A DNA stretch of 12,719 nucleotides, taken from contig JAEEYS010000188.1 of the NCBI GenBank assembly GCA_016288255.1, positions 1 through 12,719 of the forward strand, in the 5' to 3' direction. Of this stretch, positions 1,726-6,662 are shown piece after piece. Source of the stretch: Bacillota bacterium (lineage in GTDB: Bacteria > Bacillota > Tb-RUG-66). The position numbers were made by a program, and so were the translations under genes. Position 1 is the stretch's first letter. Every line of letters begins with the position of its first letter. The notes under the pieces were generated by a model, which worked only from the letters and a program-made list of their open reading frames with translations, made no database searches and was not told where the DNA came from.

Positions 1726-2925
1726 ATGCAGAATACACCGATCGCGTCCAGAAAGCAGGTCGCGATTTACGGCAATACCAATGTAGGAAAATCCACCTTG
1801 TTCAACTGTATTTTTGAGCAGAATGCGGCTATCGTATCGGAAGAAAAAGGAACGACCACGGATCCGATCATCAAAGCGATGGAACTGATCCCTTTTGGCC
1901 CTATCGCGCTCATTGATACGGCGGGCCTTAAAGACGACAGCATTTTGGGCAAAAAACGGTTAAAGAAAACAGGGGAGATCCTAAACAGAACGGATTTCGC
2001 GATCTATGTGATGGACGCGACAGAGCCGGATGAAAAAAGCTATGCAAAAATGGCAGAACAGTTTCAAAAACGGCGGATCCCGCATCTTTTGGTGTTGTCC
2101 AAATACCGTTTGGCAAAAGAGTCTGTACTGGATCGTCTGCAGAAAACTTACCCCGACGCGCTTTTGATGGAAGCGGAAGAGAGGGGATCCATTGCCGCGA
2201 TCAAGAAAAGATTGGCAGAGGAATTGTCCAAGCTGGAGGAAAAAGAGGAAACGATTTTAGGAGATATCGTATCGGCGGGAGAGAATGTGGTGATGGTGGT
2301 ACCGGTGGATTCGGAAGCGCCGAAAGGCAGATTGATCCTGCCCCAGGTACAGCTGATCCGAGACGCGCTGGATCACGGGATCAAGTGCCTTGTGACACGG
2401 GATACGGAACTAAAGGACGCGCTCGATTCTTTAACAAAAGTCGATTTGGTGGTGACAGATTCCCAGGCGTTTCGAAAAGTGGATCAGATCGTGCCAAAAG
2501 AGATCCCTCTTACTTCTTTTTCTATTTTGCTGGCAAGACAAAAAGGGGACCTAAAAGCCTATTTAGAAGGGATCGAGGCGGTGTCCCGTTTGAAAGACGG
2601 TTCCAAAATATTGATGGCGGAAGCCTGTTCTCATAACGTAGGGCATGAAGACATCGGCAGAGTCAAGATCCCGAACGGACTGAAGAAATTTACGGGAAAA
2701 GAGCTGACTTTTGATTTTGTGATGAGCTATGATTTTCCGGAAGAAGAGCGCCTGAAAGAATACGATCTGGTGATCCATTGCGGCGCCTGTATGGTGAACA
2801 AAAAATCGGTGCTGTCCCGGATTGTTTTGTGCGAAGAGGCAAATGTGCCGATCACAAATTACGGGCTGATTTTGGCGCTTTTTGCGGGGATTTTGGACAG
2901 AGCCACAGAAAAGGTCAGGGTATAA
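1726..2925 (+). CDS. hydF: [FeFe] hydrogenase H-cluster maturation GTPase HydF
   Basis: HydF is the GTPase scaffold on which HydE and HydG products assemble the diiron subcluster before delivery to the hydrogenase. The N-terminal GTPase domain shows the P-loop GNTNVGKST (residues 16-24), the switch region KGTTTDP (41-47) and DTAG (64-67). A dimerisation region follows. The C-terminal metal-cluster domain carries the family signature CxH...HCxxC at C301, H303, H351, C352 and C355, with 47 residues between the two His, inside the usual range. The 399-residue length is typical. GGAGGTG at 1714-1720 precedes the ATG by 5 nt. It is the last gene of the operon, with a strong terminator about 80 bp downstream. 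HydE is not found in this window. Confidence 0.97.
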   Translation: MQNTPIASRKQVAIYGNTNVGKSTLFNCIFEQNAAIVSEEKGTTTDPIIKAMELIPFGPIALIDTAGLKDDSILGKKRLKKTGEILNRTDFAIYVMDATEPDEKSYAKMAEQFQKRRIPHLLVLSKYRLAKESVLDRLQKTYPDALLMEAEERGSIAAIKKRLAEELSKLEEKEETILGDIVSAGENVVMVVPVDSEAPKGRLILPQVQLIRDALDHGIKCLVTRDTELKDALDSLTKVDLVVTDSQAFRKVDQIVPKEIPLTSFSILLARQKGDLKAYLEGIEAVSRLKDGSKILMAEACSHNVGHEDIGRVKIPNGLKKFTGKELTFDFVMSYDFPEEERLKEYDLVIHCGACMVNKKSVLSRIVLCEEANVPITNYGLILALFAGILDRATEKVRV

Positions 2926-3002
2926 AAATCGGTTGAACAAGAATTTGAAACAAGAAAAAGAAATGTCATGAAGATCGGTATTGAACCGGTATTGAAAAGA
3001 AT

Positions 3003-3043
3003 AAAATACGTCCTGCCTGTTTAGATCGGCAGGGCGTATTTTT
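3003..3043 (+). terminator. Intrinsic terminator of the hyd operon, probably bidirectional
   Basis: The arms 3003-3017 and 3028-3042 pair over 15 bp with one G:U and a 10-nt loop, and the 3' arm ends in a run of T. The 5' flank is A-rich, so the minus-strand transcript also has a short U-run (TTTTATT) after the hairpin. It lies 78 bp past the hydF stop and between convergent transcription units, as expected for a bidirectional terminator. Confidence 0.9.
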
Positions 3044-3088
3044 ATGAGCAGCGGTCCAAACCGGTGTAAAACGTGAGAAACAAAGTAC

Positions 3089-3117
3089 AAAAAAATTGCA
3101 GGTAAAATATACCTGCA
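3089..3117 (-). terminator. Intrinsic terminator for the minus-strand T-box/trpB-stub transcript
   Basis: On the minus strand the 7-bp stem TGCAGGT (3117-3111) and ACCTGCA (3103-3097) has a 7-nt loop and is followed by A and seven T (3095-3089). There is no T-run on the plus side, so it serves minus-strand transcription. It lies about 70 bp beyond the stop codon of the trpB remnant. Confidence 0.75.
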
Positions 3118-3188
3118 GAAAAAAATAAAAAGAGATAAAAAAATGAAAAAGAGGATGAAAACAAAAACGAAGACTATTATCAAAGAAA

Positions 3189-3383
3189 TCAGACAATAGC
3201 TTCTTTCGTGATTTTACATAATAAAGAAAGGCGCTTTGCGTGTTCTTTCAAAAGCGTGGCCGGTTCCTTCTGAACCTTGGAATCATCTTGAAAGCGGCAG
3301 TAAACTTTTATTGATCTCATTACCGTGTTCATCAAGGTTTCCGGCATATATTGACCGCAGTGAATACCGAATCTTCCTTTCAT
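3189..3383 (-). pseudogene. trpB: N-terminal remnant of tryptophan synthase beta chain (TrpB), about 64 codons
   Basis: The start is ATG at 3383, with AGGAAG (3396-3391) 7 nt upstream. The frame encodes MKGRFGIHCGQYMPETLM, very close to the conserved TrpB N-terminus (MKGRFGxxGGQYxPETLM). Weaker but recognisable similarity follows through the FQDDSKVQKE and LLKEHAKRLSLL segments. In intact TrpB the latter reads roughly LLxxYxGRPSLLYYA. The frame then stops at TGA 3191-3189. Intact TrpB has about 390-400 residues, so the PLP-lysine region and both catalytic domains are absent, and none of the frames downstream resumes TrpB sequence. One normally invariant Gly is Cys (HCGQY). The open frame continues upstream to 3626, but that part is T-box leader RNA, not protein. 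The identification is by recalled family consensus. I infer a decayed gene, although a retained small ORF cannot be excluded. Confidence 0.8.
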
Positions 3384-3439
3384 ATGATCACTTCCTATCC
3401 ATCTTACAGTGTTTTTATAAGCGTTTGTATTGCAAGAAA

Positions 3440-3721
3440 AATAAAAAAAGCCTTTGCCCCTTATAAAAGGGACAAAAGCTTGACCTTCTGCGGTACCACC
3501 CAATTTGATGTTATACATCCACTCGTTTGCATATCGATTAAAATATGCGCCCTCTTGATAACGGATCGGGTTTCCGTCAGCGCCTACACCCAAAAGGTTC
3601 GGACTGCCCTCGCAAGTCCATTCCATAAACGTCCTGATACTGCATTTTCACCGGCCGGCAGCTCTCTGAAACATTCTTGTTTATGTACTCTTCTTGCTCT
3701 ACGGTTTCGTGTTTTTTTATT
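3440..3721 (-). ncRNA. T-box leader (tRNA-Trp responsive, UGG specifier)
   Basis: T-box RNAs bind uncharged tRNA through a specifier codon and the tRNA acceptor end, and so choose between terminator and antiterminator. The canonical core TGGGTGGTACCGCAG lies at 3502-3488 on the minus strand. The Stem I landmarks AGTA (about 3690), CAGAGAGC (3668-3661) and GGTGAAAA (about 3653-3646) precede it. The specifier region reads GAA-TGG-A, with TGG at 3620-3618 as the likely specifier codon for tryptophan, matching the downstream trpB remnant. The core is followed by a 13-bp terminator hairpin with arms 3481-3469 and 3460-3448 (two G:U pairs) and a T-run (3447-3441). All key elements look intact. Stems II and III were not folded here. 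Confidence 0.93.
3441..3481 (-). terminator. T-box regulated intrinsic terminator
   Basis: This is the attenuator of the T-box leader. The 5' arm AAGCTTTTGTCCC (3481-3469) pairs fully with GGGGCAAAGGCTT (3460-3448), allowing two G:U, around an 8-nt loop, and a run of six or more T follows. It lies 7 nt beyond the T-box core, the normal arrangement for transcription attenuation. Confidence 0.88.
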
Positions 3722-3727
3722 ATTCAA

Positions 3728-3756
3728 ATTATAGTCTGATGAAAAATATTTGTCAA
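3728..3756 (-). promoter_or_regulatory. Perfect sigma-A promoter of the T-box transcript
   Basis: The minus strand reads TTGACA (3756-3751), then exactly 17 nt, then TATAAT (3733-3728): full consensus at both hexamers. Transcription should start near 3721, a few nt before the T-box leader begins. It is the strongest promoter visible in the window, yet it serves a stub gene. Confidence 0.88.
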
Positions 3757-3810: not shown

Positions 3811-4479
3811 TTATGCCAAATAAAGAAAGATACCGATAAAATGGCAGACACTGCCCGCCAATACGAAAAGGTGCCATACAGCGTGCATATAAGGCTTTTT
3901 TTTCACATAAAAAACGCATCCCACGGTAAAAAAAAGACCGCCGATCAAAATCCAAAGAAGAAAGGAAAAAGGTACTGCCGCCAATGTGGGTTTGATGGCA
4001 AAAATCACGATCCAGCCCATCAAAATATAAAGAAGGGTGGAGACCTTTTTATATTTGTCATAGTTTCCGTAAGTGACGATTTTAAATCCGATGCCAAAAA
4101 GAGCGATAGCCCATACGCTGCCTAGAATGCCCCATTTTAAAGCACCGGTAAAAGCGATCAGGGCAATGGGCGTATAGGTGCCTGCAATAAATAAAAAGAT
4201 GGAACAATGATCGAAGATCCGCAGTATTTTCTTTGGCTTTTCAAAAGGAATACTGTGATACAAAGTCGAAAAAAGATATAAACAAGTAGAACATAACCCG
4301 TATATACTAAAAGCGACGATCTTGACCGCGTTTTTTTCTTTTGCGGCATCGATCAATAAAATAATTGTCATCACCAAACAAAAAACAACACCGATCCCAT
4401 GCGTAATGGCATTGATCAGTTCTTCTTTGTGTTGATAGGACATAGTCTCTGCGGAATGTAATGACTTGGATTCTGTCAT
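3811..4479 (-). CDS. Hemolysin III / PAQR-family (YqfA/YplQ-like) membrane protein
   Basis: This 222-residue integral membrane protein of the HlyIII/PAQR family has about seven hydrophobic segments. Conserved family motifs are present: ITHGIG (25-30), S71-x3-H75 in STLYHS, D90 in FDHCSIFLFIAGTYTP, and the C-terminal H199-x3-H203 in HAVWHLF. The Ser, Asp and His residues correspond to the metal site that in PAQR relatives is linked to amide hydrolase activity. The true substrate in bacteria is unknown, and the hemolysin name is historical. The start at 4479 is chosen because GAGGTG lies 6 nt upstream; an in-frame ATG 14 codons earlier has no such site and would overlap mntP by 4 nt. It lies 38 bp downstream of mntP on the same strand, so co-transcription is likely. 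Confidence 0.9.
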   Translation of the reverse strand: MTESKSLHSAETMSYQHKEELINAITHGIGVVFCLVMTIILLIDAAKEKNAVKIVAFSIYGLCSTCLYLFSTLYHSIPFEKPKKILRIFDHCSIFLFIAGTYTPIALIAFTGALKWGILGSVWAIALFGIGFKIVTYGNYDKYKKVSTLLYILMGWIVIFAIKPTLAAVPFSFLLWILIGGLFFTVGCVFYVKKKPYMHAVWHLFVLAGSVCHFIGIFLYLA

Positions 4480-4517
4480 ATCAATCACCTCTTTTACAGA
4501 GGGCGTTTGAAGCGGTA

Positions 4518-5078
4518 TCATGATAGAAACAAATGCTCTATCAGGATCTTAAAGCCGATACCGATCAAAATCAGCCCTCCCAAAATATTGGAATATTTGG
4601 AGTAGCGTCCTTCTCCTACTATTTTACCCAAAAAAACGCCGCAAAAAGAAAAGAGAAAGGAGATCACGCCGATCAGCAAGGACGGCATAAGGATTTTTAT
4701 ATACAAAGCGGAAAAACCGATCCCCACTGCCAGCGCGTCAATGCTGGTCGCGACAGCCAGCGCAAAAAGCATCTTATAGCCGGTCAGCTTTAAGGGAGTG
4801 CCTTCCTCTCCCATGGATTCTTTGATCATTTTGATCCCGATAAAACCAAGAAGGAAAAAAGCGAGCCAATGATCTATCGGCTCTATCCATCCCCGAAAAA
4901 ACAGACCCAACGAATACCCCAACAGGGTCATAGCGGTTTGGAAAAATCCAAAAGCAATGCCGCACTTGAACCCGTTTTGCAGCGCAAAACCGGGGTCGGA
5001 AATGCCGCAGGAGATACTGACGGCAAAAGCGTCCTGGGCTAATCCCACAGCAGCTAAAAGTATCATATAAAAAGACAA
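4518..5078 (-). CDS. mntP: Manganese efflux pump MntP (DUF204 family)
   Basis: MntP exports Mn2+ across the cytoplasmic membrane. The protein has about six membrane segments and an internal two-fold repeat, each half carrying a conserved acidic motif: QDAFAVSIS around D16 and SIDALAVGIG around D114. The length of 186 residues fits the family. I place the start at TTG 5078 because AAAGGAG (5093-5087) sits 8 nt upstream. The ATG four codons further in (5066) would be 20 nt from that site, and the longer ATG frame from 5147 reads through the ribosome binding site. No yybP-ykoY manganese riboswitch is recognisable in the roughly 140-nt leader. The hemolysin-III-like gene follows closely. Confidence 0.93.
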   Translation of the reverse strand: MSFYMILLAAVGLAQDAFAVSISCGISDPGFALQNGFKCGIAFGFFQTAMTLLGYSLGLFFRGWIEPIDHWLAFFLLGFIGIKMIKESMGEEGTPLKLTGYKMLFALAVATSIDALAVGIGFSALYIKILMPSLLIGVISFLFSFCGVFLGKIVGEGRYSKYSNILGGLILIGIGFKILIEHLFLS

Positions 5079-5851: not shown

Positions 5852-5978
5852 AATCGTTTTCAGGGCAGGGTGCGATTCCCGATCGGCGGTAATATAGGAG
5901 ACTATTAGCCCGCAAGCTTTAGCAGATTTTGGTGAGATTCCAAAGCCGACAGTAAAGTCTGGATGAAAGAAAAGGATT
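5852..5978 (+). ncRNA. FMN riboswitch (RFN element)
   Basis: This is the conserved FMN aptamer. It contains CAGGGCAGGGTG (from 5861), GATTCCCGATCGGCGGTAAT (from 5875), AGCCCGC, GCAGATTTTGGTGAGATTCC (5922-5941), AAGCCGACAGT and GGATGAAAGAAAAGGAT. The closing P1 helix pairs 5852-5861 with 5969-5978. It controls the downstream riboflavin transporter gene: FMN binding should favour the terminator at 6038-6067, shutting off riboflavin uptake when flavin is abundant. Confidence 0.97.
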
Positions 5979-6067: not shown

Positions 6068-6089
6068 ATGGTGAAAAGAGGGTATGAAC

Positions 6090-6662
6090 ATGAACATCAC
6101 AACCAGAAAACTGGTCAATATCGCAATGTTATCCGCATTATCTGTTATTTTGATTTTTTTATTGAGGTTTCCCCTTGTAGCGGCGGCGCCTTTTTTGGAA
6201 TATGACCCGGGGGATATCCCCATGCTGATCGGCTCCTTTTCCTTTGGCCCTTTGGCAGGAATGTTTATTGTGGTCGTGGCATCCATTATCCAAGGACTTA
6301 CGGTAAGCGCCGGCAGCGGCTGGATCGGTATCGTTATGCATATCATCGCTTCCGGAACGTTTGTTTTGACAGCCGGATTGATCTATAAAAAGATCCATAC
6401 CAAAAAGGGAGCTTTGATCTCCTTGATCTGCGGCTCTTTGGCCATGGCATTGATCATGATCCCCACCAATTTATTCTTTACGGTAAAATTCTGGGGAATG
6501 CCGTTAGAAACGGTAAAAGCATTGATCTTGCCCGGGATCATTCCTTTTAATTTGATCAAAGCGGGGATTAATTCCGTCGCGGTATTTTTACTGTATAAGC
6601 CATTACAGCATTTGATGGGTCAAAAGAAGGAAACAACAAGTAAAAAGAAATCCATCGCTTAA
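6090..6662 (+). CDS. ribU: Riboflavin ECF transporter S component RibU
   Basis: RibU is the substrate-binding membrane subunit that captures riboflavin and works with the shared energising module (EcfT and two EcfA ATPases), which is not encoded here. The 190-residue protein has about six membrane segments. It starts with the S-component-type helix LVNIAMLSALSVILIFLLRFP and contains the riboflavin-family segment LEYDPGDIPMLIGSFSFGPLAG, plus a Lys-rich cytosolic tail. The FMN riboswitch in front supports the substrate assignment. ATG 6090 is preferred: AAGAGG (6077-6082) lies 7 nt before it, whereas the in-frame ATG at 6084 is only 1 nt away. It is a monocistronic unit ended by the terminator at 6700-6730. 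Confidence 0.95.
   Translation: MNITTRKLVNIAMLSALSVILIFLLRFPLVAAAPFLEYDPGDIPMLIGSFSFGPLAGMFIVVVASIIQGLTVSAGSGWIGIVMHIIASGTFVLTAGLIYKKIHTKKGALISLICGSLAMALIMIPTNLFFTVKFWGMPLETVKALILPGIIPFNLIKAGINSVAVFLLYKPLQHLMGQKKETTSKKKSIA

Follow-up and report, generated by a model that had tools for sequence, protein, structure and literature searches.

A tryptophan T-box leader of intact appearance in front of a decayed trpB remnant in a Bacillota bacterium

The window analyzed here, a stretch of 12,719 nucleotides, is contig JAEEYS010000188.1 (C36) of GCA_016288255.1 (G000), a Bacillota assembly of 1,374,628 bases in 203 contigs that is 75.4% complete with 1.65% contamination. A short transcription unit occupies its minus strand in the interval flanked by trhA/hlyIII (3811-4521) and by hydF (1726-2925), which is convergent to it. 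The unit consists of a sigma-70 type promoter (3728-3756), a T-box leader RNA (3465-3710) with its terminator (3448-3481), an AGGAAG ribosome-binding site evident in the sequence (3391-3396), an open reading frame (ORF) of 64 codons (3189-3383), and a second terminator (3097-3117) that closes the unit before hydF. Each of these elements had been named in the original prediction, and all were located on the minus strand at the positions proposed for them. The stretch from the leader to the closing terminator (3117-3097) contains the 64-codon ORF alone, and no intact amino acid gene stands under the T-box. HydF itself belongs to an [FeFe] hydrogenase maturation cluster on the plus strand (35-2925), together with a TM1266-type regulator and HydG. 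Also on the plus strand, an FMN riboswitch (5852-5978; 110.1 bits) lies upstream of an ORF (6084-6662) encoding a 192-residue membrane protein that, by eye, has the look of the riboflavin transporter RibU.

The promoter matches the consensus at 12 of 12 bases, with TTGACA at 3756-3751, a spacer of 17 bases, and TATAAT at 3733-3728. A match of this quality occurred once, and shuffled sequences averaged 2.4 sites with at least nine matches. Twelve T-box leaders from other genomes, described below and referred to as peers, have promoters at the same place that match at 8 to 12 of 12 bases; 11 of these reach at least 10, and that of L107 is no better than shuffles. Because two of the 12 peers likewise score 12 of 12, the perfect promoter of the window is not special.

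Covariance-model (CM) search matched the leader to the T-box family RF00230 from Stem I to the antiterminator (3710-3465), over the full model (positions 1-219 of 219), with 105.6 bits against a gathering threshold of 93 and an E-value of 5.4e-23. CM alignment and sequence place a UGG (Trp) specifier codon at 3618-3620, which is shared by all 12 peer leaders aligned, and a UGGU bulge at 3495-3498 that pairs with the GCCA 3′ end of the tRNA through a G:U wobble at the discriminator base. A tRNATrp with the CCA anticodon and a G73-CCA 3′ end is present in the same assembly (contig C124); it was recovered with a looser search pattern after the first had given nothing. In the accessible text of PMC7778990, U is found opposite G73 in 46% of Trp T-boxes, and the bulge of the window forms this same wobble pair with G73. 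The leader terminator has a 15-pair stem followed by a T run, and the piece from 3482 to 3441 folds at -22.0 kcal/mol (z -7.0; none of 200 shuffles equaled it). The competing antiterminator folds at -9.0 kcal/mol and has bases 3480-3468 in common with the terminator; by itself it is unremarkable against shuffles (z -0.4), a value computed without its tRNA partner. The second terminator, identified by stem scan and folding, reaches -12.5 kcal/mol (z -5.6). With a score above the gathering threshold, a UGG specifier with its cognate tRNA, and competing antiterminator and terminator structures, the RNA is classed as a Trp T-box, in agreement with the original prediction. The leader is most likely switch-capable in appearance, with tRNA-dependent antitermination as its predicted mode of action. 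Three of its bases (3700, 3597, and 3588) are changed among the 95 columns invariant in the 12 peers, where individual peers differ at 0 to 8, and these changes are the sole hint of possible wear in the leader. The perfect promoter and intact leader first described therefore stand as to the 12 matching bases and the complete T-box, but three leader bases are altered and the promoter is not exceptional.

The assembly contains 11 T-box matches, and the UGG specifier, read by eye from the alignments, occurs only in this one. A second Trp T-box was accordingly rejected within the assembled 75% of the genome, the other specifiers read by eye not being UGG. One of the other matches (L012 5261-5454, contig C129; 83.7 bits) has a CUC specifier by eye and follows an rsfS-like ORF, with the contig stopping before the gene it would control. 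The base of Stem I and Stem II are largely absent from its CM alignment, yet it is 75% identical to the leader of the window over 98 bases.

The 64-codon ORF is homologous to the beginning of TrpB. It matches the NCBIfam trpB model TIGR00263 over profile positions 1-55 of 385 (E-value of 2.5e-6), and its 26.8 bits against a cut-off of 392.45 leave it outside TrpB proper, both below the curated threshold and not full length. A profile of 11 peer TrpBs gave 41 bits, again over positions 1-55, and with some of the loci compared tblastn extended the match as far as residue 61; no reading frame of the window gave the same profile a second convincing TrpB match. The stub of 64 codons at 3383-3189 that had been predicted to match the start of TrpB is thereby confirmed for residues 1 to about 55. 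No Pfam family matches it at E-values up to 1. Compared with the peers by eye, the stub has a net, in-frame loss of three codons near its end, and it stops before the HTGxHKIN stretch present in the full peers. The lysine that binds pyridoxal phosphate (PLP) sits in the HKIN motif. The ORF is most likely a trpB pseudogene remnant and is classed as such, not as TrpB. A longer frame (3189-3626) was rejected as the gene, its start falling inside the T-box, and a double frameshift in codons 21-33 was rejected in favor of point changes, which by eye fit better. Behind the stub, at 2926-3189, DNA matches to trpB or trpA were of 20 bases or fewer and protein matches had E-values of 0.02 or worse; they were not taken as homology.

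No homologue of the 64-residue protein was found among 5.8 billion proteins under the word rule of that search. This is little evidence against the stub because the closest available relative of its neighbor HydF is only 69% identical, this being the best among protein-database candidates of which the top 7998 by shared words were scored. Across 398 sampled genomes of the phylum, HydF identity does not exceed 55-56%. The lineage is thus poorly sampled: the collections searched contain no other genome from the genus or family of this bacterium, and the relatives drawn on here share only its phylum.

Searched against 61 genomes, the leader of the window found its best matches in T-box leaders in G030 and G041, where they precede trpB, and in G020, where the gene is of the TrpB2 type. 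Among the loci gathered with the stub, 12 leaders (L016 included) resemble that of the window and lie 119 to 484 bases before trpB; their alignment has the UGG, the UGGN bulge, and the terminator in common. By eye, a TrpA-like ORF is recognizable behind trpB in six of the seven T-box loci whose ORFs were inspected, all but L134. Since, elsewhere in the phylum, the closest leaders head trpB or trpBA and in one case TrpB2, the leader is attributed to a lost trpB(A) operon, and its ancestor was probably, to judge from sequence, a Trp T-box with trpB or trpBA. The expectation that the UGG specifier marks a tryptophan gene is likewise supported by the same specifier in the trpB and trpBA leaders elsewhere. 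The leader nearest to that of the window among the 61 genomes (L016 133-1371, minus strand, in G030) precedes a divergent TrpB of 412 residues, which starts FGQFGGQFIPPE and exceeds the peer frames inspected by 15-20 residues; similar leaders therefore serve different types of TrpB. At L018, a T-box (1365-1618) stands before a TrpB2-type gene (1728-3143), and L019 (1324-1613), which looks the same by eye, appears to be another Trp salvage arrangement under tRNA control.

Truncation of trpB to this length was found nowhere else among the loci and genomes examined. When 111 loci were examined for TrpB length, 110 gave a match (L016 gave none), four of which ran off the end of the contig or sequence (L048, L051, L116, and L129), and in all 106 rows with a readable end the stop lies at least 391 codons on; L017 and L137 are one and the same place. 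Among the 398 genomes of the phylum, 146 have a TrpB match, the window's own genome included. Apart from it, the frame is short in G006, G210, and G095, and the others listed span at least 386 codons. The G095 frame (219) runs off the contig end. In G006, trpB lies in two pieces inside a trp operon (L150 2520-2837 and 2915-3703), with a short frame of 105-106, which makes a frameshift likely. In G210, a frame of 165-170 (L151 164-661) follows other trp genes near a contig end. The short frames in G006 and G210 are probably frameshifts or assembly errors.

Leader and coding part have not diverged alike. With L016, whose TrpB is divergent, left out of the pairwise means, the peer TrpB profile, the invariant-site test, and the branch comparison, the leader of the window is as close to the 11 remaining peers (mean identity of 0.665) as these are to one another (0.662), whereas over 54 codons its amino acid identity to them is 0.507 against 0.725 among themselves. 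Of the sites that do not vary among the 11 peers, 96 lie in the leader and 59 in the coding part; the window has changed at 3 of the former and 12 of the latter (Fisher p = 0.0011). On a common topology, its terminal branch is 0.294 for the leader, within the range of the peers (0.047-0.320), and about 0.61 (0.608) for codon positions 1 and 2, where the 11 peers range from 0.000 to 0.274. Scaled to the remaining tips, the window branch was longer in codon positions 1 and 2 than in the leader in all 60 bootstraps of each of two runs. In the stub, 7 of 17 residues invariant in the 12 peers are changed, and so are 16 of the 38 columns that show at least 90% conservation in 112 other TrpBs, which themselves depart at a median of 0 and a maximum of 15; 7 of the 112 depart at five or more positions and one at 15. 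The contrast between regulator and gene that had been singled out in the original prediction is therefore real. The peers used in this test were picked for the resemblance of their leaders to that of the window, and a comparison of the peer leaders with 109 upstream regions indicated that no additional leader had been missed by this choice; two upstream regions with the GGTGGNACC motif (L042 and L126) were left out. With L137 removed, 103 columns are invariant and the leader of the window is changed at 6 of them, up from 3. By these comparisons, constraint on the leader outlasted that on the TrpB part.

In the 75%-complete assembly, no trpB or TrpB2 scores over the cut-off (best 27.4 bits), nor does any trpA (best 20 bits) or trpC; with roughly 25% of the genome not assembled, these absences should be taken as provisional. 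A TrpB2 would have been detected, as that of L018 scores 147.7 bits on the same trpB model. A hidden second trpB was rejected, the weak TIGR00263 matches being thrC, ilvA, and cysK. A full trpB elsewhere, the search for which had been suggested at the outset, was thus not found in the assembled 75% of the genome.

The locus is probably the leftover of a trpB or trpBA operon once controlled by tRNATrp, a still switch-capable leader on a pseudogene. By analogy with the T-box family, uncharged tRNATrp would ancestrally have read the UGG in Stem I and paired its GCCA end with the UGGU bulge, whereupon the antiterminator would have formed and RNA polymerase proceeded into trpB. The lineage would then have ceased to need TrpB, losing all but the first ~60 codons, and the remainder would have drifted. 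TrpB function must have ended well before now because the stub departs at so many conserved columns and has so long a coding branch. A single early event followed by pure neglect is nevertheless incompatible with the state of the leader: at the per-site rate of the stub (0.2), the probability of three or fewer changes in 96 leader sites is 1e-6, and it is 0.01 at half that rate. For a relic, an extra step is therefore needed. The longer constraint on the leader than on the coding part is probably due to another gene, such as trpA or a transporter, which the operon drove until a later deletion; a late final deletion following an earlier loss of TrpB function is possible. We infer this order of events, as well as the present lack of function. 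The locus is probably still transcribed into a short attenuated RNA and, with tRNATrp uncharged, would yield an RNA of ~0.6 kb ending at 3117-3097 that carries the 64-codon ORF without TrpB function. Two observations speak against such a relic: no trace of a second operon gene is found at 2926-3189 beyond weak matches at chance level, and the frame of the ORF is still open. If the locus is a relic, it offers a dated view of an operon being lost, with an RNA switch that outlived its gene and a measured difference in decay between the two.

It is possible, if unlikely, that the unit has instead been kept for a purpose, either as a stand-alone RNA responsive to tRNATrp or as a T-box-controlled mini-protein derived from the start of TrpB, in the manner of anti-TRAP. 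The promoter and leader have changed no faster than those of working peers, unlike the TrpB part, the unit is complete with start signals and a terminator of its own, and a Trp T-box is known before a small regulator (in the accessible portions of PMC2494555 and PMC11255114). Its frame has also stayed open through ~50% amino acid divergence and a net in-frame deletion, which is weak evidence: with 0.3 changes per site, neutral simulations kept the frame open in 0.3-21% of cases across the indel rates used, and both indel rates and base frequencies were assumptions. Preservation is better in residues 3-19, where 13 of 14 conserved positions are unchanged, than in residues 20-55, where 8 of 17 are (p = 0.009); this too is weak evidence, as the groups were chosen after seeing the data. 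Against a retained function, the unit is present in one genome only, and the stub has neither a Pfam family nor a homologue in the protein search, the latter saying little given the lack of a close relative. Residues conserved at 99-100% in the 112 TrpBs (G9, F37, Y48, and P52) have been lost with no sign of a new motif, and three leader bases invariant in the 12 peers are changed. A second gene deleted later is preferred over a retained RNA or ORF because it needs no new function and the unit is seen in a single genome. In its specific form, a stand-alone tRNATrp-sensing unit selected to make the ~0.6 kb RNA, or a 64-residue TrpB-derived regulatory peptide, under tryptophan shortage in a lineage without tryptophan synthesis, the proposal is doubtful. 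If it is in fact maintained, the unit would represent a T-box at work in the absence of the metabolic gene that such leaders are known to accompany.

A very recent single deletion of a trpB functional until then, with no time for decay, was one of the options first raised. The good order of leader and promoter and the open frame would fit it, but the remaining TrpB part is too divergent, with 16 of 38 conserved positions changed, an amino acid identity of 0.51 against 0.72, and a codon position 1 and 2 branch of 0.61 against 0.00-0.27 in the 11 peers. The deletion would have had to strike an already unusual TrpB, of a kind approached by few of the 112, and is very improbable. Least credible of all is a misjoin cutting a whole trpB during metagenome assembly, which the fragmented and incomplete state of the 203 contigs might suggest: it would not alter conserved residues within the remaining 64 codons, a terminator and convergent hydF come next behind the stub, and no other piece of trpB is found in the assembly.

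Returning to the favored reading of a trpB(A) relic, the nearest systems are the UGG T-box leaders before trpB or trpBA (L134, L138, L125, L095, and L137), which have the same promoter, Stem I UGG, Stem II, UGGN bulge, antiterminator, and terminator. Their mean identity to the leader of the window is 0.67, equal to that among themselves, and the 105.6 bits of the window compare with 100.0 for L134, 113.4 for L138, and 102.7 for L017. In contrast to these leaders, that of the window controls a 64-codon remnant and not a full trpB, and it has changed at the three otherwise invariant bases. Anti-TRAP carries a CxxC zinc-binding motif. In Bacillus subtilis, this small protein (rtpA/yczA, BSU02530) lies behind a Trp T-box, according to the accessible text of PMC2494555 and PMC11255114. 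The window resembles it in having a Trp T-box over a very short ORF, but the stub is derived from TrpB, belongs to no Pfam family, and lacks the CxxC motif. The accessible text of PMC2494555 also places Trp T-boxes before trpB-like genes in Dehalococcoides; there, as at L018 with its TrpB2, a leader responsive to tRNATrp likewise precedes a single TrpB-type gene, though the genes are full length. Among open-licence papers, as far as their accessible text goes, none was found on a T-box heading a truncated gene, which is not a claim that none exists. Known T-boxes cover every part of the unit except the remnant.
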